Virus record (IMG/VR): IMGVR_UViG_3300021498_000001 | Span: 1-64,000 of that record | Direction: 5' to 3' (one strand) | Source of the DNA: a virus | DNA length: 64,000 bases | Shown here: positions 11,860 to 54,738 of the stretch, one piece after another | Layout of the letters: every line of letters begins with the position of its first letter | Numbering within the stretch: the first letter of the stretch is position 1 | The notes under the pieces: model-generated | Database searches by the model: none | Told to the model about the DNA's origin: nothing | What the model saw: only the letters and a program-made list of their open reading frames with translations | Program-made: the position numbers and the translations under genes

Positions 11860-12108
11860 ATGCCAAAGAATGTTAGACAGTCCAAAACAAGCAAAGCCAG
11901 AAGCCAGACCACTCAATCTAAGACTGAATTGAAAACTCAAACTCAGTCTAAAGCTGTCAAACCTAAAAAGAAGCCTATCAAGACTCTGAGTGACGCACTA
12001 ATCCATATAAATGTTGCAGGCTCTAATGTTCGCAGTGTGCATGAGTTTGAAGACAAATTCGTGATTGACCTAAAGACTGGCGAAAGGCTTGTTGTAAAGA
12101 AAAGCTAA
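11860..12108 (+). CDS. Small basic protein ahead of terminase, 82 aa
   Basis: The N-terminal half is a disordered Lys/Thr/Gln/Ser-rich tail (PKNVRQSKTSKARSQTTQSK onward); the C-terminal 40 residues form a compact strand-turn domain (HINVAGSNVRSVHEFEDKFV). Its stop overlaps the terminase start (TAATG). Its place suggests a DNA-packaging helper or small-terminase substitute, but no terminase small-subunit motif is visible. Translation appears leaderless. Confidence 0.6.
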   Translation: MPKNVRQSKTSKARSQTTQSKTELKTQTQSKAVKPKKKPIKTLSDALIHINVAGSNVRSVHEFEDKFVIDLKTGERLVVKKS

Positions 12109-13673
12109 TGCTACTTGAAAGTTCTGGCAACAAGCAATTAGTTGCTTCATTGTGTAAAGTCTTCCAAAAAGACCCTTTAGTATTCCCAGAAAAAGTCCTA
12201 GGCGTTACTCTTTGGGATAAGCAAAAAGAAATAATTAGAGCAGTATTTGAGAATGAAAGAGTAGCTGTACCTGCATGCAATCATGCAAGCAAGACTCATA
12301 CTGCTGCATGTCTGGCTCTTGCATTCTTATTTACATATTATCCTTCCAAGGTTATTACTACCTCTGCATTCAAAGAGCAAGTCAAGGATGCTTTGTGGAG
12401 TGAAATCAAGTCAAGGATAAAATATTCTATTGTCCCTTTGGTAGAAGATAAATACGTTACATCAATGGGTCTTTATTTAGGCCCAGATTGGTATGCTATA
12501 GGTTTAAGACCTCAGGATAATTCACAAGAGGCATTTCAAGGGAGGCATAGTGAGAATATTTTGATAGAATTTGATGAAAGTAGTGGGATTAGTGAAAATA
12601 TCTGGGAAGCAGCCGAAGGATTAATGACTTCTACTAACTGTCACTGGGTAGCTCTTGGAAACCCATTCGATCCTCTATCTCCTTTTGGCGAGGCATGTCA
12701 CAGCGATGATTGGGTAACCATACACATCTCTGCTTATGATACTCCCAATGTCAAAGCAGGTAAAAATATCTATCCAAAACTAATGCCTTGGGACTGGCCC
12801 GAAAAGAAAAAAAGACAATGGGGCGAAGATAGTGCAATATATCAAGTCAGGGTTTTGGGCAGATTCCCAGACAAACAAGAAGAGAGACTTATACCCTTTT
12901 CTCTTGCCAAACAAACTGTGGAGAGAAAGTATGAGAGAAATTCAAGTGAGCCTTTAATAATAGGTCTTGATCCTTCTGGTTTGGGAAGGGATAAGACTGT
13001 TTGGGTTATGAGGCAAGGACTTTCTATTGTTGCAATTAAATGGGTCTTGAGTGCTACAGATGAAGCAATAGGAAGGAAGACCTTGGATTATGCAAGAATT
13101 TACAAAAGCTCTGATAATCCTACAGTCATAAATATAGATGCTGGATGGGGCAAAGGGATATATGAATATTTGAAAAAGCATGCAGATCCAGAGAAAGTCA
13201 AGGTCAATGCTGTATATCTTTCTTCTCAAGCTCAAGAGAAAGAAGAGTTTTATAATCTAAGGACAGAAGCTGCTTTTAGACTTAGAGAGTCAATAGAAAA
13301 AGGCTTATGTTTGTCTCCTTCTGCAAGAGTTGTTAAAGATATGTGGCTTGAGGATATAACTGCTCCTAATTTTGAAGAGGATGCTAAGAGTGGCAAAAAG
13401 AAATTAGAAAGTAAGAAGCATTTAAAGAAGAGATTGGGCCGTTCTCCAGACTTTCTAGATGCTACATTGCTTACATTTGTCTCGGATTATCGTGTTGCTC
13501 CAATTATGGTCTCTGCTACTCATTTTGAGCTAGAAAACAAGACTCAAGAGCAAGAGCGAAGCGAGGGTTCAATCTATTCTGTTTTCCCCTCCGCTGTGCG
13601 GCAATTTAAGGTTATAAGAAGAGCGCCTCTATTCTATTTTAGGCGAAATATACGCAGTTCATTTGGAGGATAG
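12108..13673 (+). CDS. terL: Terminase large subunit, 521 aa
   Basis: This is the ATP-driven motor and nuclease that packages phage DNA into the prohead. The ATPase half shows a divergent Walker A (ACNHASKTHT, residues 56-65, with Lys62) and a Walker B strand (ILIEFDE, Asp156, Glu157). The RNase H-like nuclease half shows acidic residues Asp288 (IIGLDPSG), Asp344 (INIDAG) and Asp448/Asp451 (SPDFLDATLL). Length is normal for the family. It starts on the overlapping TAATG with the preceding small gene and is followed by head genes in the usual order. Confidence 0.93.
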   Translation: MLLESSGNKQLVASLCKVFQKDPLVFPEKVLGVTLWDKQKEIIRAVFENERVAVPACNHASKTHTAACLALAFLFTYYPSKVITTSAFKEQVKDALWSEIKSRIKYSIVPLVEDKYVTSMGLYLGPDWYAIGLRPQDNSQEAFQGRHSENILIEFDESSGISENIWEAAEGLMTSTNCHWVALGNPFDPLSPFGEACHSDDWVTIHISAYDTPNVKAGKNIYPKLMPWDWPEKKKRQWGEDSAIYQVRVLGRFPDKQEERLIPFSLAKQTVERKYERNSSEPLIIGLDPSGLGRDKTVWVMRQGLSIVAIKWVLSATDEAIGRKTLDYARIYKSSDNPTVINIDAGWGKGIYEYLKKHADPEKVKVNAVYLSSQAQEKEEFYNLRTEAAFRLRESIEKGLCLSPSARVVKDMWLEDITAPNFEEDAKSGKKKLESKKHLKKRLGRSPDFLDATLLTFVSDYRVAPIMVSATHFELENKTQEQERSEGSIYSVFPSAVRQFKVIRRAPLFYFRRNIRSSFGG

Positions 13674-14245: not shown

Positions 14246-15565
14246 ATGCCTTATTTCATTAAAAAATCTCCTGAAAAACCTGCACGTTTCTACGAAGCAA
14301 CTTCTACTAGACTCTCTTTGCCTGGACAAGAGGAAACCAAATCTGAGGATTGGCCTGGGTGGAGAAGATTAACAGGTGCAGCTCCTCTTAGAGAACTTAA
14401 GCCTGGAATCTTTGAAAGAATGAGTCGTATAGCCAAATGGCTGTATGACTCTAATCCTCTTGCAAAGAGAATTATTGAATATATCAAGAATTTTGTTGTA
14501 GGTGAGGGTATCTACTTTGATGCAGAGGATGCCAGAGTTAAAGAGATACTGGATGCATTTTGGTATGATGATGTTAATAATTGGCCTCTAAGACAGCATG
14601 ACAGAATCTTAGAGCTCTGTTTATATGGAGAGAGTATCTGGCCTGTCACAGTAAATCCTTCTAATGGACATGTAAGATTGGGATTTATTGACCCTTTAGA
14701 TGTAAAAGAAGTCGTGCCTAATGAGGACAATTGCTTGATTCTAGAAAAGATAGTCTTGGCAAGGCCAATTCATGGAAAGACAGAGCTGTCTATTATAAGG
14801 CGAGATGAAAATCCAAATAGCGATACTTTTGGATATCTCTCAGGTGAATGTTTCTTCTTCGCAATCAATAAAGTAAGTAATGCAACAAGAGGAGCAAGTG
14901 ACCTCTTGCCTCTAATAGATTGGATAGATGCCTACGACCAGTTTCTCTTTACAAGACTAGAGCGACAAATGAATATCAATAACTTCTGCTGGGATGTTAC
15001 ATTAGAGGGAGCAGATAAGTATGAGATAGAGCAATTTCTTAAGAATCTGCCTCCACCTACTCCAGGTACAGTAAGAGTTCACAATGAAAAGGTAACTTGG
15101 AATGTTGTTGCGCCTAAACTTGAGGCAAGAGATGCAAACCAAGAGAGCAGGCTTATAAGAAACCATATCCTAAGTGGTGCAGGTTTTCCTCCTTACTATT
15201 TTGCAGATACAGAAGGTGTGAGAGCTGTTGCTTATGAGCAGGCATTTCCTACAGAGAAAATGCTTATTACCAGACAGAAATACTTCAAAGCAATGATTGA
15301 GTATGTCTTTAACTTTGTTATAGACCAAGCCATTATTCACAAAAGACTGCCTGCAAATGTAAATCGCAAGTTTGAAATTGTATTTCCAGAAATATCTCTA
15401 AGGGATGTAGAGAGATTAAGCAGGGCACTTAAAAATGTAACTCTTTCTTTAGAGCACTTACAGCAAAATGGATTGGTTACAAATAGAGAGGCAAAAAAGA
15501 TAATAAGAAACTTGCTTAGTCAAATGGGATTGGAGTTAGAGGAGTTAAATGGAAGAAAAGGATAA
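14246..15565 (+). CDS. Phage portal protein, 439 aa
   Basis: This forms the dodecameric ring at the capsid vertex through which DNA passes. Evidence is its place after terL, its length, and portal-like features: an N-terminal wing (WLYDSNPLAKRIIEYIKNFVVG), a central crown/stem region (LPLIDWIDAYDQFLFTRLERQMNI), and a GVRAVAYEQAFPTEKMLITRQ segment like that in SPP1/HK97-type portals. Its end overlaps the start of the next very large gene by 17 nt. Confidence 0.85.
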   Translation: MPYFIKKSPEKPARFYEATSTRLSLPGQEETKSEDWPGWRRLTGAAPLRELKPGIFERMSRIAKWLYDSNPLAKRIIEYIKNFVVGEGIYFDAEDARVKEILDAFWYDDVNNWPLRQHDRILELCLYGESIWPVTVNPSNGHVRLGFIDPLDVKEVVPNEDNCLILEKIVLARPIHGKTELSIIRRDENPNSDTFGYLSGECFFFAINKVSNATRGASDLLPLIDWIDAYDQFLFTRLERQMNINNFCWDVTLEGADKYEIEQFLKNLPPPTPGTVRVHNEKVTWNVVAPKLEARDANQESRLIRNHILSGAGFPPYYFADTEGVRAVAYEQAFPTEKMLITRQKYFKAMIEYVFNFVIDQAIIHKRLPANVNRKFEIVFPEISLRDVERLSRALKNVTLSLEHLQQNGLVTNREAKKIIRNLLSQMGLELEELNGRKG

Positions 15566-18500
15566 TTTAGATAGGCTAAGCGAGCTTCATTTAGAGCAGT
15601 TTAGAAAAGAAGGGATTGATTACGACCTTAAGAATCCTCAAACTAGATGGAAACAACTCTATGCAGACCTTCGTTACATCTTTGACTCTGGTCTGCCTAG
15701 AATTTGGAAAGGGAAAAAATGGGGAGATTGGACAGAAGAAGACTGTCTTAGATATGCAGGCAAGATTATAGATGCCTTGCGTTCAGTTTATTTTCCTTTA
15801 ATCCCACCTTCCAAGAATGACCCCAGATACAACACAAGCTACTGGAAAGCCTATCGCAAGGCAGAAGAGAAGGGATATGTCAAATCCAAGCCTCCCAAAT
15901 CAGAAGAACTACCTGAATGGGATAAAAAGCGCAAAGAGATAATCAAGACCTCTTTAGAAGAAGCAGAGAGAAAATTAGATGGACTTTATTTAACACCTCC
16001 ACATGGTGAGCTTTTCTGGACTGATGAAAAGAAGTTGCTCGTGAAAACAAAGGAGTTTGACTTATCCAAGCCTCATTATCTTATAGAAGATGGATACTGC
16101 TATGGCATTATCTCATTTAAGAAGCCTAAAGAAATAACTAAACAGCAATTCTTCTCTGAAGAGTTTAAGAAAAAACATCGCATTTTGGATACAGAAGCTT
16201 GGCAATGGTGGAGAATGACGAGGGACAATGCAGTGGAGCCTAAGCTGTATGCTTATGAGATAAAAGAATTCAAACCTTTTGATGTACCTAGAAGAGTGAG
16301 AGTGCCTAAGGGCATACAGGTTATTGTGAAGGCAGACAATATTGAATTTGTGAGTGAAGATGAAGAGAAACCTGCAAAGATTGATTGGCCTACAATGGCA
16401 GCAAAGGAGGCAAAGACTGATTTTATTAAATTCTATGGTACAAAAGGATATATAGAAGAGGAGAGTGAAAGACATAAATATCATACCTGTATTTTATTTT
16501 CTCTAAATGACACAAATATCTTGTTAGATTATGGAGAAAGGCATCCAGCAGAGATAGAAGAAAGAGTGGATGTAGTATTGAACTCGCATCGGCACGTCGA
16601 TCATATATGCCCTGAAACAGTCAACTTTGCTTGCCCTTTATATGTATCTCAGCAAACTTTAGAAAGAGTAGATTTTCCTCTGCCTGAAGACATTAGAGTC
16701 TATCGGCCCAGAGAACCTTTTAAAATCGACAATATAGAAATCACTGCCTATCCAGTTTACCACTCTATTCGTGCTCCTATGCATATCTTCAAAATCGAAA
16801 CAGACAATCTTGCCATAGGAGTAATGACTGATTTTTTGGGATTTAGAGACAAGAATGATGAGGACTCCTTTTATCCAGATTTAGACATTGTAATTATAGA
16901 TGGCAGTAGCATTACAAGAGATTTAAGGCGATGGAGAGAAGAGCATGACGAGCCTTTTGGACATGAGAGTGTAATACACCAGATAGAAAGGATTAGAGAT
17001 AAGTGTGAGAAAAATCCTGTAATAATCCTCACTCATATAGGCAATGAAGGACTTGAGCTAGGTGATGAGAGAATTCTAGAGTTATTGTCAGAGCAATTTC
17101 CTAATATGAGGATATATGTTGCCAAAGATGGCAGTATATTTGATTTGAAGACAAAGCGATTTACAGAAGCATTCAAAGGAGAACAAATCTGCAAAGATAT
17201 AGTTGCAAACTTGCCTTCCTTTACATGGATACCTGAATTTGTAAGCATAACAGGCTCTACCTTATTTACAAAAGACCATGCGCCTAGAGATTTAGATGTG
17301 ATGTGCAAGGCAGAAGAAATAAATGGAAAGTGGTATATACCTGTGGATACTTCTTTATTACTTAAACTGCAACGAGCGTATCAATATGCAACAAAGAAAG
17401 TATTAGGTAAGGCAATTAAAGCTGACTTTCCTCCTCCCTCGTTGATAGGCCCAAATTGGTGTGTTGATGATAAAACTGAGATTTTAACCAAGGATAGAGG
17501 TTGGGTATTATTCAAAGACTTAAAGGAATCAGACTTAGTAGCTACAGTATCAAAGGACGACTATTTAGAATTTCAGAAACCAATAAGATATTTCTCTAAT
17601 TTCTATAAAGGAAAAATGATTCATATCAAGAATAAGAATATAGATTTATTGGTCACTCCAGAACATAAGGTTATCTATTATCCATGTTTCACGAGAAATA
17701 AAAAACGAATCATATCTGAAGAATGGCAGATGATAGAAGCTCAGAAACTCCTTGAAATGAAAGGAAGAATTTATTTGAAACTAGGATGCAAATGGAAAGG
17801 TGATGGTGATTCAATATTTTGGATTCCACCCTGTATTGGATACAACATGAAGTTAGAACCGCCAGTACCAATTGATATGGAAGATTTTGCTATGTTTATG
17901 GGATGGTATTTATCTGAAGGAAGTGTTCACATTACACCAAAACAAGTTTACTCCGTCTGTATTGCACAATATGAAGACTCTCCTAAGTTTCAAGAATTAA
18001 AGGAATTACTATCTCGCTTGCCATTTGACTTTAAAGAAGTAAGAGGGAACCAAGACAATCCAGAAAAGATTACTGGATTTTGTTGCAAATCGAAACAGTT
18101 AGCTTTATATCTTAAACAATTTGGTAAATGTTATGATAAGTTTATTCCTAATGAAATTAAGAATCAAAAACCAGAAATACTGAAAAGATTTTTAGAATGT
18201 TATTTCTATGGCGATGGACATTTGAGAAAAAGAGCAAAAGGACTGTATGTTGCTAAAACTGTATCTGAACGCTTAGCTGGTGACCTGCAAGAAATTGGCT
18301 TGAAGCTAGGAATTAGAGTCTCCTATAATAAGGAAGGAAATGGAAAACGAAGAAGAATCTACATTGGTAATTTCACTCTTGAATCTAAGTGGAAAAGCAA
18401 AATGAGGCAATTATGTCGTGTTTGTCTTGAGCTTGGACATGTAAAGGAAGTACCATATGAAGGAATGATATATGCAGTTGAAGTGCCTAATGGTATTGTT

Positions 18501-21500
18501 ATTGTTAGGAGAAACTTTAGATTTTGTGTGACTGGTAACTCTTCCATTCCTGCCTACGATTTAAAACTTGTCCCCAGAAAAAATCCAGAAGTAAGAAGGA
18601 CAGGAGAAGAAGAGTTTGAAGAGAAGGTTTATGGAGTGGATTTTAAAGAAAAGCTACGCCTTCGCACCAAATCCAAAGATATTGAAAAAATGGCTCAACA
18701 GTCCCTAGAAGAAGATAAAGTTAAACCTCTTCGCTTCTTTATGCCTCTCAAACCTATAAGAGTGCAGGGCAAACATGGAGAAAGGAATACGCCTGAAAGA
18801 TTGGTAGAGCTATTTGAGCCTCAGCATTATCCTGTATATAACTCAGTCAAGAGGGATGGTTTCAGGGCCATCCTAATGTACGATGGAAATAAGGTTGTCA
18901 TTTACTCAGAAGATGGCAATGACATTACAGACCAATTGCCTACAATTGTAGAAGCAATCAAAAAACTCAAGGTTAAATCAGTCATTCTGGATGCTGAGAT
19001 TGAACTCTGGGAAAATGGACAGCATCATCCAAGAGAGGCAGCAATTGCTAAAATTCACTCCAAAGCAATAGAAGATGAGAATTTGATTGCCAATATTTTT
19101 GACTGTGTCTATCTAAATGGCCAAGACTTACACAAAGAACCTTTTGAAAAGAGATGGAAGGCATTAAATTCTATTGGCATTAAATATTCAAAGGAGACCA
19201 GCCTAGACCCAAAGCAGAAACTCAATATCATACCTCATATCCCATGCAATACACCCAAAGAGCTTCTTAAAGAGACAGAACGAATGAGAAGAGTGAAATC
19301 GAGTGAAGGATGTGTGGCCATTGCACACAATGCTGTATATCCTTTGGATGGAAAGCCAGAAGGTAACTCTTTCTGTAAGTTTCATAATAATGTGGTTGTG
19401 AGAGGGATAGTAGTACAACCAGTCGAAACACGAACCAGCGGCGTATTTAATTTGACCTGGGGTTGTTTAGCAGAAGGCCACGAAATCTTAAAGAAAGACC
19501 AGACAGAAGTAGGGCCTTATGAAAAGGTCTTAGTTATAGGCAGCACTTTTGCAGCACCTTATGTAAAAAGAGGAGCTGTTATTGAGGTTGAGTGTGAGAC
19601 AATCAATCATATCATCCATGAAGATATAGAAGGCAAACCTATAGAGATTACAGCTTGGGCACCCAGATTTATGCGAGTGGTACCTGGAGCAAAGCCAGAC
19701 AGCATAGATGATATTTTAAGAAAAGCAAGGAAAGAAAATCATGTTTTGCAGATTAAAATAGTTAAACCTGATGGCACAGTAGAGTACAGAGAGTCAAAGA
19801 AAGAACTCCTTTGCTTTCTTACAGAAGAACCTACTTTAGAGAGTCAGATAAGCGATAGATTTGGCGCAGCCAAATATGCTGTGTTCTTTGAACCTGCTAC
19901 TTATCACTTTGAAGCAGTAGATTTGTCTAATTTTAGAACAGGTGTAGAGATTGCAGATTTAATAAAGCAGCATCAGGCAACTAAAGTCATTACAAATCAA
20001 ATAGGAAGATTTAGCAGAGACGAATTAGAAAAAGCTGGCATTGAGATTGATTTTGCAGAGGGAAGGGTGAGTGATTATTTGAAAAAGGAGCTGGGAGAGA
20101 GTCCTTTGGTAAAGGAGGCAGAAATAAGGGAGCAGGGTGACCCATATATGCAGTATTTCGATGAGGATAAAGAGCATAGAGTGTGCAACCAGAGGCATTA
20201 TAGATTTGCTCTTAAGGACATACTCAAAGAGACTGGAATGGAAGATGAATGGCCTGATGAGTGGACAGAAGAAGATTGGCGAAAAAATTGGGATTCTTGG
20301 AAAAGAAGAGTATATCCAAAATTAAGGAAATATTTTGAAACTCATCCTGAATATGAGCATAGTCCTTCAACTCATGTAGATCAAAGATATGAGACAGATA
20401 GTGGTGCATTGATTGGATGGACTATATTGGATTCACTGCCAGATAGACCTAAAGTGCCTCCTCTTTCTTTGGAGGATGCCAAAAAGTTTGATAGAGATCC
20501 TTCTAATTGGAAGATTGATTGGAACACAGGTGAATGGGCTTGGCGTGAAAAAAAAGGTGGAGCAAAGGCAAGAATTTCAATTGTAGTAAGGAAAAAGTCA
20601 CCAGAGCCCCTAGACTGGCTCACTTTTGAGGGTGAACAGCCCCCCAAATCGGTTGGTGCAACAGCTTATGGCCCTGCTATCTTTACTCACATTACTCCTT
20701 TAGGAGTAGTTGAGACGCTCAGCCAGAAAAGTTACATGCATGAATACTATCTCACATTTCCCAATTTTAAATGGCATATAGTATTTCGTCTTTTGAGGAA
20801 ACCATTTGTGCAGAAAGAATCATTTAAGGAAGCACTGAGAACACAAGATTATGAGCGTCTTTCAGAAATGGTTGAATTAGAAGAAGGCGAATCTTTAGAA
20901 GAAGGCTTGTATCTAGAAGCTAAGAGATTTATTCCAGTTTCTAAGGGCGGGTGGGGGCTGGAGGAAAGTGGATGGGTAGCTATTTATGTCACAAGAGAAC
21001 CCTATGTTATTTCAAAGCGTGCAGTACAATTGAAATGGATTCCACCTTATCCCTACAGCGCCCTCCCTCGCCATATCAAGAAACAAATCCCACCTGAATA
21101 TCACTACTGGAAAGAAAAGGATATGCAAAAGCGCATAGAGATAAGGGATGCTCTTGTTAAAGCTATCAAAGAAAAGAAAGTTGTATTGAAGGAGAGTATT
21201 GTAAGAGACTTTAAACTTGACTTTCACTGGAGCGAACCTGCTGAGTTGGTGAAGCGTCGCAGCCCCGCCCACAAACATTGGGACCTTCGAATCGATGGCG
21301 ACCTCAAAAAGAAAACAGGTTATATCTTCCACGCAGTCTTAGAACTCAATCCCTTAGAAGTTGACTCTACTTCTGCATATCTCAAGAAATGCAAAGGAGA
21401 TGAAGGCGGCATTGATTGGATGAACGTGGGCAAAGAAAAGACAGTTAAATTCACAAAGGGCCCAGGAACATTTGAAAAGAATGAGCCAGGGTACATAAGA

Positions 21501-21659
21501 GCATTGGATTGGGGCAGAGTTTTAGTGCTTGAAGACTCTCCTCTCTTTAAGAAGTTTCAATTTAAGGGCAAAAAATTAAAAGGTATCTGGATTATGTACA
21601 GAAGCAGTCCAGATACAGATATTTGGATATTTGAAAAGAGTAAGAATATAGGCAAATAA
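15549..21659 (+). CDS. 2036-aa multidomain protein: MBL nuclease, nucleotidyltransferase, intein, DNA ligase, NifX-like, LigD-PE-like
   Basis: Domains in order: an unrecognised helical N-terminus (1-300); a metallo-beta-lactamase domain with HxHxDH at 347-352; a pol-beta-type nucleotidyltransferase with GS at 569-570 and DLD at 581-583; an intein at 638-997; an ATP-dependent ligase/nucleotidyltransferase core (KRDG with Lys1101, LDAE with Glu1150, EG motif IV near 1253, Lys1277); a NifX/dinitrogenase-cofactor-like domain at about 1420-1512; then two LigD phosphoesterase-like motifs, THVDQR (1608-1613) and HKHWDLR (1908-1914). The combination suggests DNA end processing and sealing. It overlaps the portal gene and precedes the capsid gene, so it is expressed late and might be packaged. 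Mature length after splicing would be 1676 aa. Confidence 0.8.
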   Translation: MEEKDNLDRLSELHLEQFRKEGIDYDLKNPQTRWKQLYADLRYIFDSGLPRIWKGKKWGDWTEEDCLRYAGKIIDALRSVYFPLIPPSKNDPRYNTSYWKAYRKAEEKGYVKSKPPKSEELPEWDKKRKEIIKTSLEEAERKLDGLYLTPPHGELFWTDEKKLLVKTKEFDLSKPHYLIEDGYCYGIISFKKPKEITKQQFFSEEFKKKHRILDTEAWQWWRMTRDNAVEPKLYAYEIKEFKPFDVPRRVRVPKGIQVIVKADNIEFVSEDEEKPAKIDWPTMAAKEAKTDFIKFYGTKGYIEEESERHKYHTCILFSLNDTNILLDYGERHPAEIEERVDVVLNSHRHVDHICPETVNFACPLYVSQQTLERVDFPLPEDIRVYRPREPFKIDNIEITAYPVYHSIRAPMHIFKIETDNLAIGVMTDFLGFRDKNDEDSFYPDLDIVIIDGSSITRDLRRWREEHDEPFGHESVIHQIERIRDKCEKNPVIILTHIGNEGLELGDERILELLSEQFPNMRIYVAKDGSIFDLKTKRFTEAFKGEQICKDIVANLPSFTWIPEFVSITGSTLFTKDHAPRDLDVMCKAEEINGKWYIPVDTSLLLKLQRAYQYATKKVLGKAIKADFPPPSLIGPNWCVDDKTEILTKDRGWVLFKDLKESDLVATVSKDDYLEFQKPIRYFSNFYKGKMIHIKNKNIDLLVTPEHKVIYYPCFTRNKKRIISEEWQMIEAQKLLEMKGRIYLKLGCKWKGDGDSIFWIPPCIGYNMKLEPPVPIDMEDFAMFMGWYLSEGSVHITPKQVYSVCIAQYEDSPKFQELKELLSRLPFDFKEVRGNQDNPEKITGFCCKSKQLALYLKQFGKCYDKFIPNEIKNQKPEILKRFLECYFYGDGHLRKRAKGLYVAKTVSERLAGDLQEIGLKLGIRVSYNKEGNGKRRRIYIGNFTLESKWKSKMRQLCRVCLELGHVKEVPYEGMIYAVEVPNGIVIVRRNFRFCVTGNSSIPAYDLKLVPRKNPEVRRTGEEEFEEKVYGVDFKEKLRLRTKSKDIEKMAQQSLEEDKVKPLRFFMPLKPIRVQGKHGERNTPERLVELFEPQHYPVYNSVKRDGFRAILMYDGNKVVIYSEDGNDITDQLPTIVEAIKKLKVKSVILDAEIELWENGQHHPREAAIAKIHSKAIEDENLIANIFDCVYLNGQDLHKEPFEKRWKALNSIGIKYSKETSLDPKQKLNIIPHIPCNTPKELLKETERMRRVKSSEGCVAIAHNAVYPLDGKPEGNSFCKFHNNVVVRGIVVQPVETRTSGVFNLTWGCLAEGHEILKKDQTEVGPYEKVLVIGSTFAAPYVKRGAVIEVECETINHIIHEDIEGKPIEITAWAPRFMRVVPGAKPDSIDDILRKARKENHVLQIKIVKPDGTVEYRESKKELLCFLTEEPTLESQISDRFGAAKYAVFFEPATYHFEAVDLSNFRTGVEIADLIKQHQATKVITNQIGRFSRDELEKAGIEIDFAEGRVSDYLKKELGESPLVKEAEIREQGDPYMQYFDEDKEHRVCNQRHYRFALKDILKETGMEDEWPDEWTEEDWRKNWDSWKRRVYPKLRKYFETHPEYEHSPSTHVDQRYETDSGALIGWTILDSLPDRPKVPPLSLEDAKKFDRDPSNWKIDWNTGEWAWREKKGGAKARISIVVRKKSPEPLDWLTFEGEQPPKSVGATAYGPAIFTHITPLGVVETLSQKSYMHEYYLTFPNFKWHIVFRLLRKPFVQKESFKEALRTQDYERLSEMVELEEGESLEEGLYLEAKRFIPVSKGGWGLEESGWVAIYVTREPYVISKRAVQLKWIPPYPYSALPRHIKKQIPPEYHYWKEKDMQKRIEIRDALVKAIKEKKVVLKESIVRDFKLDFHWSEPAELVKRRSPAHKHWDLRIDGDLKKKTGYIFHAVLELNPLEVDSTSAYLKKCKGDEGGIDWMNVGKEKTVKFTKGPGTFEKNEPGYIRALDWGRVLVLEDSPLFKKFQFKGKKLKGIWIMYRSSPDTDIWIFEKSKNIGK
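17460..18539 (+). mobile_element. LAGLIDADG intein, 360 aa, inside the multidomain protein
   Basis: The intein begins with Cys638 (CVDDKTEILTKDRGW, block A). It has a block B TPEH motif (LLVTPEHKVIY), two LAGLIDADG helices (MFMGWYLSEGSVHI and FLECYFYGDGHL) of a homing endonuclease, and a C-terminal block (EGMIYAVEVPNGIVIVRRNF then FCVTGN). It ends in Asn997 with Ser998 as the first extein residue. The residue before the terminal Asn is Gly rather than the usual His, a known variation that can slow splicing. The insertion point lies between the nucleotidyltransferase and ligase domains. Confidence 0.92.
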
Positions 21660-22251: not shown

Positions 22252-22283
22252 GCCCAGTAAGTGGAAGAGGCAACTTGCTGGGC
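22252..22283 (+). promoter_or_regulatory. Hairpin with SD-like loop at the capsid gene start
   Basis: GCCCAGTAAGT can pair over 11 positions (one G-U) with ACTTGCTGGGC. The 10-nt loop is GGAAGAGGCA, a Shine-Dalgarno-like sequence, and the helix ends one base before the ATG at 22285. The structure could display or gate the ribosome site of the capsid gene. A possible GTG start (22261) would lie inside the helix. Confidence 0.55.
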
Positions 22284-22284
22284 T

Positions 22285-24639
22285 ATGAATGTTTTAAGTA
22301 CAAGCGATTTCTTAGAAACCTTTCAAGGCAAATTCCTTCCTTTATTAGAGTCTTCTAAAACAGGCGAAGAGTGGGATGTTGTCTTAATAGAAGCAGGCAG
22401 AAGCAAAGGAGGCAGTCAGGGACAAATCCTTTATCCAGAAGAAGTATTGAAGAAAGCAGTCCCTCTCTTTGAAAATGCCAAATGCTATGCCTTTGAATTC
22501 AGCGGTCAAATCTATGACCACCTACCAGAAAATATCAAACAGGCAGTACCTCAAGGTTTTGCAAAGAACCTTGTCGGTTATTTCACAAATCCAAAGCTAA
22601 AGAAACTCCCTAACGGCAAAAAGGGCATTGTAGCAAGATTTCATGTCATTGCAGATTGGCTTAAATCTGCTCTCAAGAATGCAGGCAAAAAACTGCCAGA
22701 GCTGCTGGGATTCAGTATAGATGCTGAGGGTGTAGTGGATAAAGAAAATCAGGTTGCCTTGTCAATTGACAGAGTAGATAGTGTGGACTTGGTAACATAC
22801 CCAGCAGCAGGGGGCAGATTTTTAAGAATGGTTGCGTCAAGGCTTGCTGCGAGTTTGCAACAGCAGGCTAATTTAAAGACATCAAACAAAGGAGGGTTGG
22901 ATATGGTAGAAGGCAGAATGTTGTTAATGATGAAAGGTTTGCAGAGTGGTCTTAAGGAGGGACAAGAGCTAGAAATCACAGATGATGTTGTCAATGCTAT
23001 CTTCTCAGAGGCTCTAGAGAAAGAGGAGATTGAGGAGTCTAGGGATGAGCTGAAAGAGATTATCTCACAATGCATTGGATTCTTGAAAGAAGGCAAAGAC
23101 CAGTTTGCAGAAGCTCTTTTGAATGGGATTGTTGAGGCTAAGAAGAAAAAGAGGAAAAAGAAAGAGGAGTATCCTAGCCCTGAAGAAGAGTATCCTAAAC
23201 CTCAGAAGGCTTCTATGCCTGAGCCTCAAGCTGAGCCTAAACCTGAGATGAAACCTGAGCTTGAAGAGGCAAAGAAAAAGAAGAAAGAAGAATATCCTTA
23301 TCCTGAAGTACAGAAACAGTCTCAGGAATTACAGGCTCTTAAAGATGAAATTACTCGCCTCAAATTAGAGAAGTACTTAGAAGAAGCTCTTAAGGAATCT
23401 GGTCTTACCAATGTTTCCAAGAACCAGATCAGAAGCATGAGATTTAGCTCTGTAGAGGAAATTGATAAGGCTATCCAGAACATGAAGGACTTAGAAGCTA
23501 AGTTTATGCAGGAAGCTGGCATTTCAAGCAGGGTAGAAGCAGGTGAAACTGAGGGCGAAAAGGCATTGAAACTGCTTGAGGATGTTATTGAAGGTAAAGC
23601 TCACAGCATTAAAGAGGCTTATGTCAGGTTTACAGGTGATACTAGAGTCACAGGCTTAATAAGAGAGTGCAGAGGTAGGGGCAAGGAAAGAATTACAGAG
23701 AGCTTAACTACTTCAGATTGGGCAGAGGCATTGGGCGATACCTTGAGGCGTAAGCTCATAAAAGAATATCAAGTTTCTGGCTTAGATGACTGGAAGAAAA
23801 TCGTATCTGATATAGTGCCTTTACCTGACTTTAGAAGCCAGCATTGGATTAGATTGGGTGGATACGGTGAGCTTCCTTCTGTATCTCAAGGTGCAACTTA
23901 CACAGAGCTAACTAGCCCAACAGATGAAGAAGTGACCCTGTCTGTGAGCAAAAAAGGTGGCCTTGAATCGGTCACTATTGAGATGATAAAGAATGATGAC
24001 ATAATGGCAATTAGGCAGATTCCTAGAAGGTTGGCAAGAGCTGCTGCTCAGGCTCTTTACAATGCTATATTTGATGACATTCTCAAAGACAATGCAACAA
24101 TATATGATAGTGTTGCCCTATTCCATTCAAGCCACAATAACTTAGGAAGCTCTGCTCTTTCTGCTTCTTCATTTATGGCAACAAGAAAGGCAATGGCACA
24201 GCAAACTGCTTATGGAAACAGCGAAGAATATCTAAACCTCTATCCAAAATGGTTGATTGTGCCAGTGGATCTTGAGGATACAGCATTCAAGATTTGCCAT
24301 TCTCCTGTGTATGTAAGTGCAGCTTCTTATTACAGCGGTGGTACTGCTTCAGAGGCTGCAACCACTCCAAATATTGTACCTCAGAAATTTAAGACAGATT
24401 ACATTGTTGTGCCTAGATGGACAGATGCAAATGATTGGATCGCAGTAGCAGATCCTAATATGTGTCCTACAATAGTTGTAGGCTTCTTGGATGGGAAAGA
24501 AGAGCCTGAGATATTTATTCAGGATCAGCCTTCAGTCGGTAGTTTATTCTATGCTGATAAGATAGTGTACAAGATTAGGCATATTTGGGGCGTGGCTGTA
24601 TTTGATTACAGGCCATTCTATAAGCATGTAGTGAGCTAA
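22285..24639 (+). CDS. Fused prohead protease, scaffold and major capsid protein, 784 aa
   Basis: Residues 1-190 resemble Mu/HK97-type head maturation proteases (LPELLGFSIDAEGVVD, VDSVDLVTYPAAGGRFLR). Residues about 200-480 are a charged scaffold region with a Lys/Glu/Pro linker containing repeated EEYPxPE. The last 300 residues form a capsid domain like phage Mu gpT or HK97-type subunits (ESVTIEMIKNDDIMAIRQIPRRLARAA, LIVPVDLEDTAFKI). I prefer ATG 22285, just after the hairpin, over GTG 22261. Self-cleavage would release the capsid subunit. Confidence 0.82.
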   Translation: MNVLSTSDFLETFQGKFLPLLESSKTGEEWDVVLIEAGRSKGGSQGQILYPEEVLKKAVPLFENAKCYAFEFSGQIYDHLPENIKQAVPQGFAKNLVGYFTNPKLKKLPNGKKGIVARFHVIADWLKSALKNAGKKLPELLGFSIDAEGVVDKENQVALSIDRVDSVDLVTYPAAGGRFLRMVASRLAASLQQQANLKTSNKGGLDMVEGRMLLMMKGLQSGLKEGQELEITDDVVNAIFSEALEKEEIEESRDELKEIISQCIGFLKEGKDQFAEALLNGIVEAKKKKRKKKEEYPSPEEEYPKPQKASMPEPQAEPKPEMKPELEEAKKKKKEEYPYPEVQKQSQELQALKDEITRLKLEKYLEEALKESGLTNVSKNQIRSMRFSSVEEIDKAIQNMKDLEAKFMQEAGISSRVEAGETEGEKALKLLEDVIEGKAHSIKEAYVRFTGDTRVTGLIRECRGRGKERITESLTTSDWAEALGDTLRRKLIKEYQVSGLDDWKKIVSDIVPLPDFRSQHWIRLGGYGELPSVSQGATYTELTSPTDEEVTLSVSKKGGLESVTIEMIKNDDIMAIRQIPRRLARAAAQALYNAIFDDILKDNATIYDSVALFHSSHNNLGSSALSASSFMATRKAMAQQTAYGNSEEYLNLYPKWLIVPVDLEDTAFKICHSPVYVSAASYYSGGTASEAATTPNIVPQKFKTDYIVVPRWTDANDWIAVADPNMCPTIVVGFLDGKEEPEIFIQDQPSVGSLFYADKIVYKIRHIWGVAVFDYRPFYKHVVS

Positions 24640-30351: not shown

Positions 30352-30635
30352 GATACAGCTGCGATCCCAAAACTTGTGATGCATATAGGATTTCAGGTGG
30401 AAAGGCTTGTAAAAGTTGTCCCAACAATCCAGAGAATTGGCAAAAAGACCTTGACCCAAATTGGATTGCTTATTCAAACTACATAATTTGGTTGCATACT
30501 CTAAAGAGTATAGGGTGCACCTTCTTAATGGATGACCTATCTCTTTCTGAGTGGAAGGCACTAGAGATTCTAGAGAGAGAAATCAAACTTAAAGAAAAAG
30601 AAGAAATGGAGAAAATTAAGAAAGGAAGGAAGTAA
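29893..30635 (+). CDS. Tail assembly chaperone, -1 frameshift form (GT-like), about 247 aa
   Basis: The -1 frame stays open from the G5 run (30327-30331) to TAA at 30633-30635, which overlaps the tape measure start as TAATG. The extension adds SLRYSCDPKTCDAYR, KACKSCPNNPENW and a helical charged end. It has no start codon of its own, and 743 nt fits one -1 step. It contains four cysteines in C-x4-C...C-x2-C spacing that may bind metal. This matches the conserved programmed frameshift in tail chaperone genes. Confidence 0.78.
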
Positions 30636-33600
30636 TGGCTGGCTATGACGTTAGTATCACCATAACCACACGCTGGAGAGAAGCAGGCAAACCTCCTTCT
30701 CCTGAGCCTGTTCAAAAAACAGAGCAGGCAGTAAGGCGTACTACGGCTGCACTCAAGGAGCAGCAGAGTATTCTGGCAAGATTCATCCGCAATTGGAAAA
30801 ACACCTTTGCTGTTTTCGCTGCAGGATATGTAAGCGTTGTAGCTTTCCTAGAAGTGTTGCGTCTTATGAGTCAGACTATTGCGGGTGGAATCCAAAAAAT
30901 TGCAGAATTTGAGTCTGCTGTCGCTTCTCTTACAGCAAGATTAATGTCATTGATAGGAGTTAGGCCTGGAGAAAGTCTGTCTGCAGGTTGGGATAGACTA
31001 ACAGAGTATGTGAAGAATGTCTATAATTGGGCTATCAAGTTGGATGCTCAATTTAGCGGGACTACTGAAGAATTAATGGAGGCATTTAGAGCATTGGCAG
31101 ATCAAGGCATTATTTTAAATGTTCAAGCCGAAGAACATCGCAAGGCTTGGCTTGCTATTGCAGAAGCTGCTAAAGCTGTGAATCCTCATATCAGAAGACA
31201 GGGACAAATGTATCAAGAAATTAGAGCTTGGGTGCAAGGAATTGTGAGACAGGGAAATGAGCTTGCAAGACAATCAGAAGCAATGATTCCTAACTATAAA
31301 GAGCAAGTCAAGCTACTTGCAAGTGCTGATGAGTGGGTGCAGTTTATCAATACTCATTTCTTAGGTTACTTAGTCTTGTCCAAAAAGATAGGTGATACTT
31401 GGGATGCAGTAGTTTCAACTTTTGAAAGCTACTTTACTCTCCTGCAAAGAATGGGACTCAGGCCCTTGTTTGAAACATTGAAGAATATCATTGCCAGCAT
31501 GGCTGATTATCTAAGAAAACATCTTGTGCCTCTTAGTCTCAATTTTGCTGCTATCTGGAAAGCAATTGGGCCTGCAATTCAATTGATAGCAGATATTTTT
31601 GGAATCATATTTAAGACAGTAAGTGCCTTGTCTCCTATTATTGCTGCATTCACTCATGCGGTTGGCACTTTGGCATCCTTATTCAGAGTGCCTCTAAAAT
31701 TATTCTCTATGCTTTTAGATAATGCAATAGAATATGAAACTCATTTATATAAGATTGAAGAGCAGCAGAAAAAGACTTTCGCTATAAGTGAAGAAGAAAG
31801 AAGACTATTGGAATTAAGAAAAAAGGAAGAACAGATTGATTTAACTAAACCTCTACAATTAGCAGAAGAAGCAGAATATGAATTATTAGCAGCAGCTAAA
31901 AGTGCTACTTATGCAAGAATAGAACTAAAGCGAAGAGAAGTCAAAGACGCTATTGAGGCCATCCAGAAGAAAATAAAGGCATTGCTATTGGTGGAAGAAC
32001 TGGAATCTAAGGTAGCTAAGCAAGGCATGAAGGAAGCAGAAGAAAGGCGCAGGAAATGGGAGAGTGACTATAAAGAATGGGTTAGACTCAATTCAGAGCT
32101 TAGTCAATTGCAACAGAGATTATATCGAATGCCTCTTGGAGGTGGAGCTGAAGCGGGAGAAATCATGTCTCGAATAAGGCAAATTCAATCTAGAATATTA
32201 GGACTATCAGAAAGCCTCAATAAATATAATAAAGCTCAAGAAGACTATGTAGAGCATGCTGAAAAGGCCAAAGAAGCTGATGAAAAAATAGCAACACTCA
32301 GAAAAAAACTCGTTACATTAAATAAATATCTTGCACTTCTCAATGAAAAATTAGCAGAGGAAGAAAAAAAGATAGCAGAAGAAAAGGAGAAAAATGCACA
32401 AAAAGAGTTGCTGAATATTAAGAAACTTTCTGATGCTTATGCTGCCTTGGCAGCAGATTATGAAAGATATCAAACTCAAATGGCTACAGTTACAGAAGAC
32501 CTAGCAACAGAAAGATTGAGAATAGAATCTGAATTGACAGGCAGTCTAGAGGCTCAATATCGCTATCGAGTACAACAAGTGGAAAGATGGGAAGCTGAAA
32601 AATGGAATCGAGTCAAATCTATTCAAGAGAGCATGCTGAAAAAAATAGATAATATGAGGCGTCAAATAGAAGAGCAAAGAGCTAAGGAAAACAGAGAGCT
32701 TAGACTGGATGAAGCTGCCACGCTTGTTGACCTCGAAATAAAGGAAATGGAGATTTATAAGGATGTGCAAGAAAAGAAAGTTGAGATAGCAAGAATTGCT
32801 GCTGAAAAGGAGAAGCAGATTTTTCTAGATACGTATGGGTATGCAATTAATTTGGGAGAAATGCTTGAAAGTACTGTTGCAGATGCTTTCGAAGGAATAG
32901 TTCTAGGTACTCGTAAACTCGAAGATGTGTTTACAGCTATGAGAGATGTGATTGTGGAACGCTTTTCTAGAATGTTTGCAAGAATGATAAGAGACAAACT
33001 AGATTTTGATACATTTTGGGTTGTCAATGTGGAGAACATGCCAAAACAGTTTGAAAAGTCTGTCTTTAATATAAGAAGTATCTGGAACTCCCTGATGAAC
33101 TGGATGACAAGCTCTATAGGTAAACTCACAGGAGCAATTGGCACCATTGGATATGGCATTGCTGGAATGGTGGGAGGAGAGCCTTGGAGAGCAATAGGTG
33201 GAACAGCTGCAACAGCAGCTATGCTTACAGGGCATCCTGTTATTGCAGTCGCTACAATTACAACAGCAGAGATTGCAAGAGCAATATTTAAGGGAAGAGT
33301 AGAATGGGTATCTGTAGGAGCACCTGCTGCAGGAATGGCGGGAACAAGAATCGGACTTGAGAGAGGATGGTGGGAAAGCATGTCCACCTTCTGGAAGATT
33401 AGTTTGTCATTTCTTACTGGATGGATACCTATATTTGGTAGTATTTTTGGCAGAAAATGGCCTACAATTAGAGGTACTCTAGAAGCCTCTCTAACCTTCT
33501 TAACAGAAGCATCTCAAATAGCAGATGAATATGCAGAAGAAATAAGCAAGGTTTCAGGTGGAACAAAGGGACGAGTAAGATTTGAAGAAGCCACAGAAAA

Positions 33601-36600
33601 TGTCAGAGTCATTATCCTTCAGTGGCGTGATGTAAAAGGAAGCATGGATGAGTTATCATTAGCATTCCTTAAGTTTACTCAGGATGTCATAGATACATAT
33701 AATGCCTATTTTGCAATGTTACCTGAAGACATAAGAGAGGCACTTATAGAATCTTTACCTCAAATAGAATTTGCCTTTGCTGGTGGACGCAAAGATATGG
33801 AAATATTAGGAAAAAAGGTTGCCACCAAGATGTTGATAGAGACATATCTTTCCTGGGGCGTGCCGTTAATAGAAGAGTTTAATAAATTATTGGGCATAGA
33901 TTTATTTGAAAAATTTGGCTTGGAAAAGACTTGGGAAGAATTGATAGAAAAGGCTGGAGTTGACATATTTAGAGAGTTTGGTCGAGCTTCGCATAAACGC
34001 AAAGAGGAAATAGAAGAACTTTATGAGTACGTTACCCAAGAACTTCAGACTACTGTAGATGTTGTACTCAGAACTGCTGGAACCTTATACAATTTGATGA
34101 AAGTGTATGGAGATGGAGTTGAAATTTATTTTGATAGCATATTAAATTATGTAAAGGATATTGTAGATAAATATACCGCTGAAATGTCAGGCTTAAAAGA
34201 AGAAGAGGTAGCGAAAAAGGCCGAGGAGTTAGGAAAGACAGTAGATGAATATTTATCAGCAGTAGTTTCTTTCATAGAAGACATAGAAGATACAATTGCT
34301 GAATATACTCTGGCTCCTGCTGCAAGAGAAATCAGAGACATAGAAAAATGGTATCAAGAAAGAATTGCAGAAGCGGAGTCATTAGGTTTATCTATCGAAA
34401 GACTTAACCAAGCAATGGCTCTCAAATTCTTTAAGCCCATAGAAGATATTATAGATACCAGAAGTGATTTTGAAAAAGCCATAGATGAGCTCAATGAATG
34501 GTATTTAGCAGCAACAGATTTCTTTGAGAGACACCAAGAAGTATTAGAATCCTTAGGCTATTCTATTGAAGAGATAATCCTTGCATACAGAACACAATTG
34601 GAAAGGTTATTCTTATCTCCTTTAGAAGAACTCAGAAAAAGGATTGCATCAATAGGTGGCGGTGTACAGATTACACCTGAAGAACGTGCTGCTGAGATAT
34701 CCAGAATTCTAGATGAAATTATGACTTTGCTTGCTTCAGATACAGAAACCCTTGCTTCTCAATGGGAGCATCTCCTTGAGCTCTTAAATGAATATATTAA
34801 TTTACAGGAGCAAGCATATGAGGAACAAATAGAACAATTACGCGATGAGTATGAAAAGCGGAAAGAATTGACTCGCAAGGCTTACGAAGAAGAAATGGAA
34901 AAAATCAGAGAAGAATATCAAGCTAGAATCGATGCAATTCAAGACGAGATTTCACAGGTAGAAGAATTAATGAGTGCATGGGAGTCCATCCAAGATAGAG
35001 TGGATGACCTTATTGAACAGATTGAAGAAGCAGGCAAAACGCCTGTAGAATCTTTGGAGTCTGCTTGGAGTGAATTTCAAGATTTATTGAGAGAAATAAT
35101 GGAGGCTCCTCCAGAAGAAAGACCTGAGCTCATAGAGGAACTCTTGGATTTAATGCCAGAGATATTGAATCTTGCAGAAGATATTTTTGGTCAGGGAGAA
35201 ATTCTTAATCAATTACAACAATATTTCTTGGATATTTTAGAGCACATAGGAGCAGAAGCTGAATCTCAACTGGATGTATTGAAAGAAACAAGAGATGCTT
35301 TGGAAGCACAAAAAGAGCTGTTGGAAGATGAATTGGATATGAGATTAAGCGAATTAAATGAGTCAATGGAAGCAGCCTTGAATGCCTTAGATGAGGATTT
35401 ACAGTCTAAGATTGATGAACTTACTCAATCAACCATTGATGCATTAATGTCATTGATAGACACTGTCGAAGAAGCAGGAGAAGGCATTATAGATTCTATG
35501 ACTGGAGGCGAATTTGCTGGCATTTCAGAAGAAAAACTTGAGGAATTAAGAGAAAGTTTAGAATCGTTACAAAGCAGTTTTGAGGGACTGGATTTAGGAA
35601 CTATCAATGAAAATATAAGTACATTGACAGAAACAACTACCGATCTAATACCAACGATGAGTGAAAATCTTGCTAATGAGGTTGCGTTGATGAATGACCA
35701 GATCTTACCACTATTGCAACATATAGACGAAGGCATCAATACAGTCCTTGTAAATGTTATAAACAGTGCAGTTTCTACATTGTCTGAAGCAGTTGGAACT
35801 GGAGTTGCATCTATTAATGGCCAGATTGCAAGTACAGGTGCATCTCTCGGCAATGCAATCTCAAGTGCTGCATCCTCAATTTCATCTGCTATATCTAGTG
35901 CAGCGAGCTCAATATCTGCTTCTATTTCTGCCATTCAATGTGTCTGTGAGAGTCATTGTCATTGTGACTGTTCATGCACCTGTAATGTTAATACAGAATC
36001 AGCACAGGCAGGTGGAATTGTAACTCGTCCAACATTACTCATGGTAGGAGAAGCAGGTCCAGAAGCAATAATACCCTTATCTCGATTGAGTCAATATGTA
36101 CCTACTTCGAGATATACTTATCCTGCTTATTATGAGCCATTTATAGATCCATGGAAATTATGGGATGAGATAAGAGATTTAGTTGATGCAATAAGAGAAC
36201 TCACAGAAGAATTGGCGGATTGGATAGAAGAAGCACTCAATCCTTTGTATGATTTTGAGAAAGATCTAGATGAGATAATAGAAGAAACCAAAGAGTGGAT
36301 AAAATTATTAGAAGCACATAGAGATTATCTTGAGAGCATTGGGTACAATGTTGACCAGCTTATCGATTTAGTAAAACAAACAGCTTGGGAGAAAATTTTG
36401 GATTTGATTGAAGATGATATAGAAGAAGTGAGAAATCTTGTAAACTATACTTCTGATTGGGAACAGGAAATTGCTGATATTCTAGATTGGTATGAAGAGT
36501 TAACAAGGAAGACAGAAGATATATTAGATATACTGGAGGAGACATTAATTCCAACAGTTTTAAAGAAATATGGAATTACTACTATTCAAGATTTGGAAGA

Positions 36601-47819: not shown

Positions 47820-48239
47820 ATGGATTTTTCAAAACTACCCGAGGTAATTTTGCTTGCTCTTTGTATATTTGGAGAGGCAAGAGGAGAGCCTTTACAAGGA
47901 AAGATAGCAGTGGGGCTTGCTGTTAGAAATAGAGTAGAGAAACACCATAGCTCTTATCGCACAGAAATTCTCAAGCCTTATCAATTTTCTTGCTTTAACA
48001 AGAATGATCCCAATTACAAAAAGTTATGTCTCTATGCTTCTAAGAGTGAAAAGGAATGGATGCGTTCTAAGACTCTAAGAGACTGCCTTCTTGCTGCTAA
48101 GATTGTAATGGAAGGGATTACTGATTTTACACATGGCGCCACTCATTATTTTGCAACTTATTGCCCTGTTCCTAGTTGGCTCAAGGGATTTAAATTCTGT
48201 GGACAATTTGGGAGGCATTTATTTTGGAAAAAGAGTTAA
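47820..48239 (+). CDS. SleB-type cell wall hydrolase (endolysin), 139 aa
   Basis: This is a lytic transglycosylase-like enzyme of the Hydrolase_2/SleB family that degrades peptidoglycan for host lysis. It shows the family motifs IFGEARGEP with the catalytic Glu19, GKIAVGLAVRNRV, YQFSCFNKNDP and THGATHYFA. It lacks a signal peptide, so it needs a holin. Length is that of the bare catalytic domain. Confidence 0.85.
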   Translation: MDFSKLPEVILLALCIFGEARGEPLQGKIAVGLAVRNRVEKHHSSYRTEILKPYQFSCFNKNDPNYKKLCLYASKSEKEWMRSKTLRDCLLAAKIVMEGITDFTHGATHYFATYCPVPSWLKGFKFCGQFGRHLFWKKS

Positions 48240-53426: not shown

Positions 53427-53623
53427 GTAAAATCATAAATTCTAAGAATAGAATATCAGCAAAGATTTTGATGAGATTTGTTAAAGAAGATTGGAATGCT
53501 GAAACTTATTGTGTCTCGGACTTCTCTGGAGTTTCTTTGGAGGCTGTTTTCATGTTTCTGAATGAACTTAGATACTCCAGAATGGCTGGACAATTCGTGG
53601 GAAGTGACAAATGCTTGCAATAA
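53423..53623 (+). CDS. Small helix-turn-helix-like protein, 66 aa
   Basis: The segment KILMRFVKEDWNAETYCVSDFSGVSLEAVFMFLNELRYS has the spacing of a winged helix. It overlaps the neighbouring genes on both sides. Function unknown. Confidence 0.5.
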   Translation: MSKIINSKNRISAKILMRFVKEDWNAETYCVSDFSGVSLEAVFMFLNELRYSRMAGQFVGSDKCLQ

Positions 53624-54664: not shown

Positions 54665-54667
54665 TAA

Positions 54668-54738
54668 GCGGAGGTAGCTTAAAGGCAAAGCATTTGGCTT
54701 CCAGCCAAAGGATACAGGTTCGAGTCCTGTCCTCCGCT
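54668..54738 (+). tRNA. tRNA-Gly (anticodon TCC)
   Basis: A full cloverleaf can be drawn: acceptor GCGGAGG/CCTCCGC, D stem GCTT/AAGC, anticodon stem TTTGG/CCAAA with loop CTTCCAG (anticodon TCC, reading GGA and GGG), T stem ACAGG/CCTGT with loop TTCGAGT, and discriminator T. The CCA end is not encoded. A T8 tract follows. It may help decode GGA-rich phage genes. Confidence 0.92.

Follow-up and report, generated by a model that had tools for sequence, protein, structure and literature searches.

Bacterial LigD and the corresponding archaeal set for non-homologous end joining (NHEJ) bring together a polymerase (POL), a phosphoesterase (PE), a ligase (LIG) and Ku; the PE of Pseudomonas aeruginosa LigD requires His42, His48, Asp50, His84 and Tyr88 (PMC8656161). 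The mycobacteriophages Omega and Corndog combine Ku with host LigD (Pitcher 2006, as cited in PMC7719229). Polyvalent proteins, as their survey describes them (Iyer et al. 2017, PMC5512222), are large multi-enzyme chains that portal-terminase viruses encode together with their head proteins or fuse to them. And then there is ANMV-1, an archaeal virus with a protein, AJP62006, annotated merely as 'ATP-dependent DNA ligase' (KP703175); the ANMV-1 paper is silent on the ligase and the portal. The subject of this article is a gene that has to be set beside all of these. It is a single uninterrupted open reading frame (ORF) of 2036 codons at 15549-21659, plus strand, in a 64,000-nucleotide stretch (the window) of virus record IMGVR_UViG_3300021498_000001, which in full has 72,622 bases.

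The ORF belongs to a modular family, apparently undescribed so far, whose genes adjoin those of the portal, the head maturation protease or both, in viruses with about six different types of portal. We think there is an even chance that its product is a multi-enzyme protein of the head module that processes DNA ends and seals them, and that it would be borne in the procapsid, work without Ku and be ejected with the genome.

Domains of the 2036-residue protein

The start of the ORF overlaps the portal gene by 17 nucleotides, and the ORF is followed by a protease-capsid fusion gene, so it is indeed, as the sequence-only reading had it, one frame between portal and capsid genes that overlaps the portal. 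Its domains run in the order helical, ASCH, metallo-beta-lactamase (MBL), nucleotidyltransferase (NTase, with an intein inside), ligase, NifX-like, PE1, MID and PE2. We set their limits with iterative profiles built locally, and compared these with Pfam, with PDB profiles and with structure predictions.

15549-21659 (+), whole multidomain ORF, 2036 aa (reading frame)
15585-15794 (+), helical domain HEL, residues 13-82 (local hidden Markov model)
15981-16334 (+), ASCH-like domain (PUA-like fold), residues 145-262 (profile against PDB 2dp9/1wk2, TTHA0113, E 2e-4)
16425-17153 (+), MBL domain, residues 293-535 (Pfam Lactamase_B_3 9e-9; PDB profile 1.6e-9)
17190-17459 (+), Pol-beta-superfamily NTase, N-terminal part (GS..DLD), residues 548-637 (motifs; low model confidence)
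17460-18539 (+), intein of 360 aa, Cys638-Asn997, with LAGLIDADG endonuclease (Pfam/NCBIfam; LAGLIDADG_3 2.5e-7)
18540-18578 (+), C-terminal strand of the NTase with the third acidic residue (AYDLKLV), residues 998-1010 (motif)
18735-19670 (+), ATP-dependent DNA ligase (adenylation and OB), residues 1063-1374 (Pfam DNA_ligase_A_M 2.6e-20)
19848-20093 (+), NifX/dinitrogenase-cofactor-like domain, residues 1434-1515 (Pfam Nitro_FeMo-Co 3.6e-6)
20145-20795 (+), PE1, first LigD-phosphoesterase-like domain, residues ~1533-1749 (profile match to LigD-PE)
20979-21161 (+), MID, a conserved family-specific segment (RAVxxKWxPP..YSALP..HYWKEK), residues 1811-1871 (local profile)
21210-21638 (+), PE2, second PE-like domain with HKHWDLR at 1908, residues 1888-2030 (local profile, motif)

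The ligase has the fold of DNA ligases. Its predicted structure matches human LIG1 at Z 25.7 over 308 residues and a Pyrococcus ligase at 25.0, and motifs I, III, IV and V are present (SVKRDGF at 1099, with K1101 as the motif I Lys, ILDAEIE at 1146, SSEGCVA at 1251 and FCKFHNN at 1275), His replacing the second Lys of motif V. We set RNA ligase aside as the main assignment because the domain matches DNA ligases throughout; RNA substrates are possible.

The MBL fold is certain. Its predicted structure gives Z 22.6 to 1zkp and 22.2 to PhnP, with about 22 for YhfI, ELAC and PhnP structures generally, and HxHxDH (in NSHRHVDH, residues 345-352) and all other metal ligands are in place. These best structural matches are single-domain types, and for that reason we dropped a beta-CASP/Artemis-type MBL. 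Apyc1 is among the profile matches (E 0.001), more weakly than the RNase Z and ELAC types. Lists of structure matches from Foldseek/VIA were occupied by one domain each (the MBL or the ligase), and the absence of other folds there is uninformative. The best BFVD match is an entry listed without a name, A0A516LT18 (827 aa, 830 aligned columns).

The NTase has its full motif set in the window: GS and DxD (ITGSTL..PRDLDV, residues 567-584) and the third acidic residue (YDLKL). In the PDB its profile picks up only DNA polymerase mu, with an E of 1.3 that is not significant, and the domain is modelled at low confidence. Just ahead of the third acidic residue it is interrupted by the intein, whose putative splicing residues are C638 and N997, followed by S998, with Gly as the penultimate residue. 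In two close relatives, L002 and L004 (L numbers are our contig handles), 75-81% identical, the intein is missing as one clean block and PNW runs straight into (S/A)SIPAYD.

PE1 carries RHY..THVDQR, an insertion separating the metal His from HVDQR; we placed RHY by eye in this insertion-bearing stretch. The family profile of PE1 has five matches in the PDB, all of them PEs of LigD type (3p43, 3p4h, 5dmp, 3n9b and 2lj6), the best being 3p43 at E 0.0013 and the last three non-significant individually. Of the outer domains, the ASCH region is modelled at a predicted local distance difference test score (pLDDT) of about 90 over most of its length, HEL is a mobile module found at other chain positions in L023, L032 and L042, and the NifX-like domain is confined to the window and L002/L004.

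How does this sit with what had been read from the letters alone? All four motifs named at the outset (HxHxDH, GS...DLD, KRDG/LDAE and HKHWDLR) lie in the one frame, and the intein proposed there is real, with boundaries at C638 and N997 and a clean absence from L002/L004. The list of domains was right for MBL, intein and ligase and, as far as motifs and weak profile matches go, for NTase and PE2; it missed the helical, ASCH, NifX-like and first PE domains. Two labels claimed too much: 'MBL nuclease', where the fold is certain, the nearest types are YhfI, PhnP and RNase Z, and a nuclease function is not supported; and 'LigD-PE' as a functional assignment, given that His84 and Tyr88 of LigD-PE are replaced.

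The family and its place in the head module

We looked for homologues by tblastn over 50,697 phage records, by scanning IMG/VR with alignment queries and in archaeal metagenome-assembled genomes (MAGs). Among the phage records the core had a homologue only in ANMV-1 (AJP62006), other matches to the full ORF being to the intein or to ligases in general. The alignment-based scans of IMG/VR returned 52 contigs besides the window. With the ANMV-1 protein as sole query, a pattern scan of IMG/VR matched nothing; alignments are required to detect members. Three contigs from two archaeal MAGs complete the set, and 4 of 294 sampled genomes of the same archaeal phylum were positive, a figure that includes one of these two MAGs.

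Across the family the core order is (ASCH)-(MBL)-NTase-ligase-PE1-MID-PE2-(PE3), in one ORF or in two to three adjacent ones. Domains shuffle: MBL and ASCH swap, the ligase sometimes follows the PE block and the helical domain moves. The outer domains vary (HAD, 2H, DUF6884, methyltransferase, NifX-like) around a constant core. L021 carries an additional PNK3P 3'-phosphatase (3.7e-5) and a 2H phosphoesterase (6e-7), both above Pfam cut-offs, and L027:5355-9749 has one or more DUF6884-type domains before the ligase (9e-7, just below the cut-off) and a head-protease-like C terminus. Looking for the order elsewhere, as had been advised, yielded more than 50 related contigs, with the single-chain ASCH-MBL-NTase-ligase-PE1-MID-PE2 architecture of the window recurring in L023, L024, L026 and L060 and in the window's own close relatives; among described proteins we found none with the same order, in line with the earlier claim. 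Text searches across 5.39 million open papers (most subscription literature lay outside the search) returned no account of a ligase in such a head-module setting.

Inteins or intein-like insertions occupy several different sites in the family. Large insertions in L034, L038, L045, L060 and L095, near ligase motif I, near motif V or inside PE1, are probably inteins, and that in L045 has clear intein sequence. Inteins usually occupy conserved active-site regions, which the varied sites fit. Another oddity is seen in six contigs (L014, L015, L016, L017, L018 and L025), where a break between motifs IIIa and IV divides the ligase over two ORFs that overlap or adjoin, one encoding methyltransferase-ligase(N) and the other ligase(C)-NTase-PE1-MID-PE2; the ligase may be naturally split here, or the product of a frameshift.

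The catalytic residues are kept, and their loss in all relatives, which the sequence-only reading had named as grounds for giving up the idea, is not what we see. Counted over 90%-non-redundant members with gaps set aside, the ligase keeps the motif I Lys in 21/21, the motif III Glu in 22/22, the motif IV Glu in 23/23 and the first Lys of motif V in 21/21; the second is Lys in 14/21 and His in the remainder, the window included. The MBL metal set is complete at seven positions in 8/8. NTases have the Gly and DxD in 23/23 and the third Asp in 11/22. PE1 retains His42 (22/23), His48 (26/26), Asp50 (26/26) and Arg52 (25/26), together with a family-specific YFHEYF (His 24/25, Tyr 25/25); the position of LigD His84 is changed in 25/26, mostly to E or Q (E in the window), and that of Tyr88 is W in 25/26, the window among them. 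The HxH..HWDLR of PE2 is kept in the window, L004, L014, L023, L026 and L027. Between the window and its relatives the ratio of nonsynonymous to synonymous substitution rates (dN/dS) is ~0.1 overall and 0.04-0.2 per domain where estimable. On these figures the domains are under purifying selection, and the low dN/dS together with homologues in more than 50 contigs means that the ORF is no chance frame. One stretch of the window, 20094-20795 (PE1 and the preceding linker), has ~55% identity to L002/L004, as against ~85% in the flanking domains, and was likely exchanged by recombination.

The portal gene precedes the module, with little or nothing between the two, in ANMV-1, L009, L010, L013, L021, L023, L026, L030, L031, L032, L082 and the window. 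The portals themselves differ: phrog_10963 in the window; Phage_portal_3 in ANMV-1, L009 and L048; Portal_Mu in L010; Phage_portal/phrog_12 in L013, L020, L021 and L032; phrog_113 in L023 and L026; and phrog_18178 in L030 and L031. Most contigs with no recognised portal have the head maturation protease adjacent. Within the available flank neither was identified in L033, L036, L039, L047, L070, L072, L076, L091 and L095.

In eight contigs the association goes as far as a single chain with the head protease, of XkdF type in L013, L020, L029, L032, L082, L085 and L088 and of another type in L027. The chain includes the ligase in six of the eight (L020, L027, L032, L082, L085 and L088). The orders are NTase-PE-LIG-XkdF (L020, L085, L088), NTase-LIG-PE-XkdF (L032 and L082, the L082 protein having 1020 aa), PE/NTase-XkdF (L013/L044, L029) and, in L027, LIG-PE with a different head-protease C terminus. 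Pfam finds Peptidase_S78_2 in L013, L020, L029 and L032 and none in the window ORF. On the PE1-MID tree the protease fusions need three changes, of which the well-supported branches force only one. The portal, for its part, is fused C-terminally to the family ASCH domain in L017:2144-4465 and L018:2153-4465.

The head genes around the ORF in the window are these:

12108-13673 (+), terminase large subunit, with which the head module begins (phrog_2 1.3e-32)
14246-15565 (+), portal protein (phrog_10963 6.8e-41)
22261-24639 (+), head maturation protease-major capsid fusion (PHROG matches; Phage_capsid_4 4.1e-47 among window proteins)

Downstream of the head genes lies an ORF of 2767 aa (30635-38938). 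Further along are genes for a cell-wall hydrolase (Hydrolase_2, 47820-48239), RecT (50972-52219), a CHC2 DnaG zinc finger (53611-54102) and MT-A70 (59187-60332), and an IS110-type transposase-like ORF (55722-56645; Transposase_20, 1e-4) near tRNA-Gly (54667-54740). ANMV-1 and the MAG contigs are archaeal. We did not adopt an archaeal host for the window from its kinship with ANMV-1; a bacterial host is quite possible and would suit the gene content of the window, where TBP is absent and the cell-wall hydrolase, RecT and the DnaG-type zinc finger are present.

What the protein may do

Our proposal starts from the procapsid. The module would be built in through its association with head protease or portal, and we place it inside because head proteases of that type act in the procapsid interior. 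Maturation proteolysis would then free it (in the window, intein splicing would also be needed to complete it), and it would be enclosed with the DNA and later ejected along with it. In the new host, ends that are damaged or blocked could be trimmed by the PE and MBL domains and perhaps extended with nucleotides by the NTase; the ligase would seal nicks or join the genome ends, in repair or circularisation, without Ku. Packaging, ejection and substrate we infer. The DNA-ligase fold, the intact catalytic residues, the fusions to protease and portal, the adjacency to portals, the PNK3P and 2H domains of L021, the lack of any other DNA_ligase_A_M match on records that have one, the varied intein sites and a dN/dS of ~0.1 all support the proposal. 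They suggest a repair enzyme of a kind not yet described, carried within the virus particle. The sequence-only reading had thought of end repair by a packaged enzyme or one acting during packaging; the fusions, L021 and the ligase fold lend weight to it. The broader idea is of a new, virion-borne and Ku-independent class of end joining, present in diverse tailed viruses that are nearly all metagenomic and include at least one archaeal virus. In it an NTase-ligase-PE core would be carried in the capsid by protease or portal, ejected, and put to work on arrival to heal or seal ends or breaks of the viral genome itself. This we hold more tentatively, at somewhat under an even chance.

Several observations weigh on the other side. 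Packaging and ejection are deduced from gene position and fusions only, and in the window module and protease are separate ORFs. PE1 has E/Q and W in place of LigD His84 and Tyr88, only about half of the family members retain the third NTase Asp, and the metal ligands of PE2 are lost in ANMV-1, L020, L021, L029, L032 and L048. The MBL is identified at the level of fold, not of substrate, and the NTase and PE assignments are drawn from motifs and weak profile matches. Ku (PF02735) was found in 0 of 19 records, some of which may be fragments, by a search in which the Bacillus subtilis control was positive; we reject Ku-dependent NHEJ for this reason. Where a DNA_ligase_A_M match is present (16 of the 19), it is the family ligase and no other. 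With no Ku and a sole ligase, a role in replication or packaging is therefore possible too.

Packaging deserves the first hearing. The protein could act at the portal in the producing cell, mending nicks, gaps and broken or blocked concatemer ends so that the terminase does not stall, with no need to enter the next host. Portal adjacency across different portal types, the portal-ASCH fusion, the DNA-ligase fold and the lack of a second ligase on the record all agree with this, and T4 offers a parallel in its ligase and endonuclease VII, both linked to packaging. The head-protease fusions, however, indicate the procapsid interior rather than the motor, and end-healing domains such as PNK3P, 2H and PE fit damaged ends better than packaging nicks. 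We regard it as unlikely.

A counter-defence role of polyvalent type would also have the protein work after injection, the MBL degrading a cyclic nucleotide as Apyc1 does, the ligase, NTase, PE, 2H and PNK3P domains mending RNA or DNA cut by the host, and the ASCH domain binding RNA. It would explain the changing peripheral domains around a constant core, agrees with the polyvalent-protein concept as the survey (PMC5512222) frames it, and can point to an MBL closest to YhfI and PhnP with Apyc1 among its matches. Yet RNase Z and ELAC types match better than Apyc1 (E 0.001), no typical polyvalent marker is among the domains that Pfam recognises in the window ORF, and an invariant core of ligase, NTase and PE spells end repair. 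This we consider rather unlikely.

Could it be simply the virus's only replicative DNA ligase, moved to the late operon by gene shuffling with the other domains as passengers? Each record has one ATP-ligase domain, always that of the family. The recurrent association with portal and head protease, the fusions into one chain and the purifying selection that the domains show argue otherwise, as does the place of an ordinary phage ligase, outside the head module in StopSmel for example, and we give the idea little credence. That the enzyme folds have lost catalysis and been exapted as building parts of the procapsid is very improbable: PE2 and the third NTase Asp are degenerate in part of the family and PE1 is without LigD His84 and Tyr88, but the metal and nucleophile residues of ligase, MBL and PE1 are almost invariant.

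Why might this matter? For uncultured tailed viruses there is little to explain how a linear phage genome survives its first minutes in a hostile cell, or how it is closed without Ku or host end joining. More than 50 virus contigs now show a ligase, two to three end-healing folds and an NTase tied to portal and head protease, and the main enzymes keep their catalytic residues. If our proposal is true, it makes the concrete claim that end repair can be a capsid function, and the family becomes a source of single-chain end-joining enzymes.

Comparison with known systems

A gene family previously known only as the 'ligase' of ANMV-1 recurs in uncultured viruses. AJP62006 shares the NTase-ligase-PE1-MID-PE2 core of the window protein, at ~30% identity over the whole core, and likewise lies directly downstream of a portal (Phage_portal_3). 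Unlike the window protein it has 866 aa, lacks ASCH, MBL, NifX and intein, and has lost the metal ligands of PE2. Its neighbours on the ANMV-1 record (L007) are worth a word. AJP62005 (1913-3193), labelled 'MutT-like phage hydrolase', is the Phage_portal_3 portal (3.2e-22), and AJP62007 (5868-9368) is a cysteine-rich repeat protein of 1166 aa with, by eye, a MuF-like C terminus.

The XkdF/Peptidase_S78_2 proteases that form the C-terminal domain of the chain in relatives of the window protein are found in cultured phages, PaP1 and Lactococcus 62501, in the same interval between portal and capsid. There they are short and have no ligase or PE (PaP1 gp48, 156 aa; Lactococcus 62501, 350 aa). We considered the 'DNA methyltransferase' matches to the XkdF domain in PaP1-like phages as a precedent for fusing an enzyme to the protease and dropped them, gp48 being essentially all protease; the label 'N6 adenine-specific DNA methyltransferase' on gp48 (L100:3905-4375) and its relatives looks like propagated misannotation.

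With LigD the family has in common an ATP-dependent DNA ligase and a PE fold in a single chain. Ligase motifs I-V are found in the window, with His as the second Lys of motif V, and the PE manganese triad His42/His48/Asp50 and Arg52 are kept. It differs in encoding its enzymes in the head module, in having a Pol-beta NTase where LigD has an archaeo-eukaryotic primase (AEP) polymerase (the window ORF has no such match in Pfam/NCBIfam scans), in the replacement of PE His84 and Tyr88, and in the Ku partner, absent from the 19 records. We do not class the protein as LigD because AEP polymerase, His84/Tyr88 and Ku are all missing, and call PE1 LigD-like because it lacks two residues essential in a true LigD-PE. 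Omega and Corndog, on the account cited above, resemble the proposed role in joining ends to circularise a phage genome; they supply only Ku and borrow host LigD, whereas here the virus would bring its own ligase and healing domains, no Ku having been found.

Polyvalent proteins are the nearest in general design. The likeness lies in the large multi-enzyme chains and the company of head proteins, and their testable features are present in our family, in which core and carrier are both new. The core is one of DNA ligase and end healing; the ligase passages of the survey (PMC5512222) concern RNA ligases and contain no DNA ligase/PE core. The carrier there is MuF; here it is the head protease or the portal-ASCH fusion. 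There is a substantial chance that the family is a separate class.

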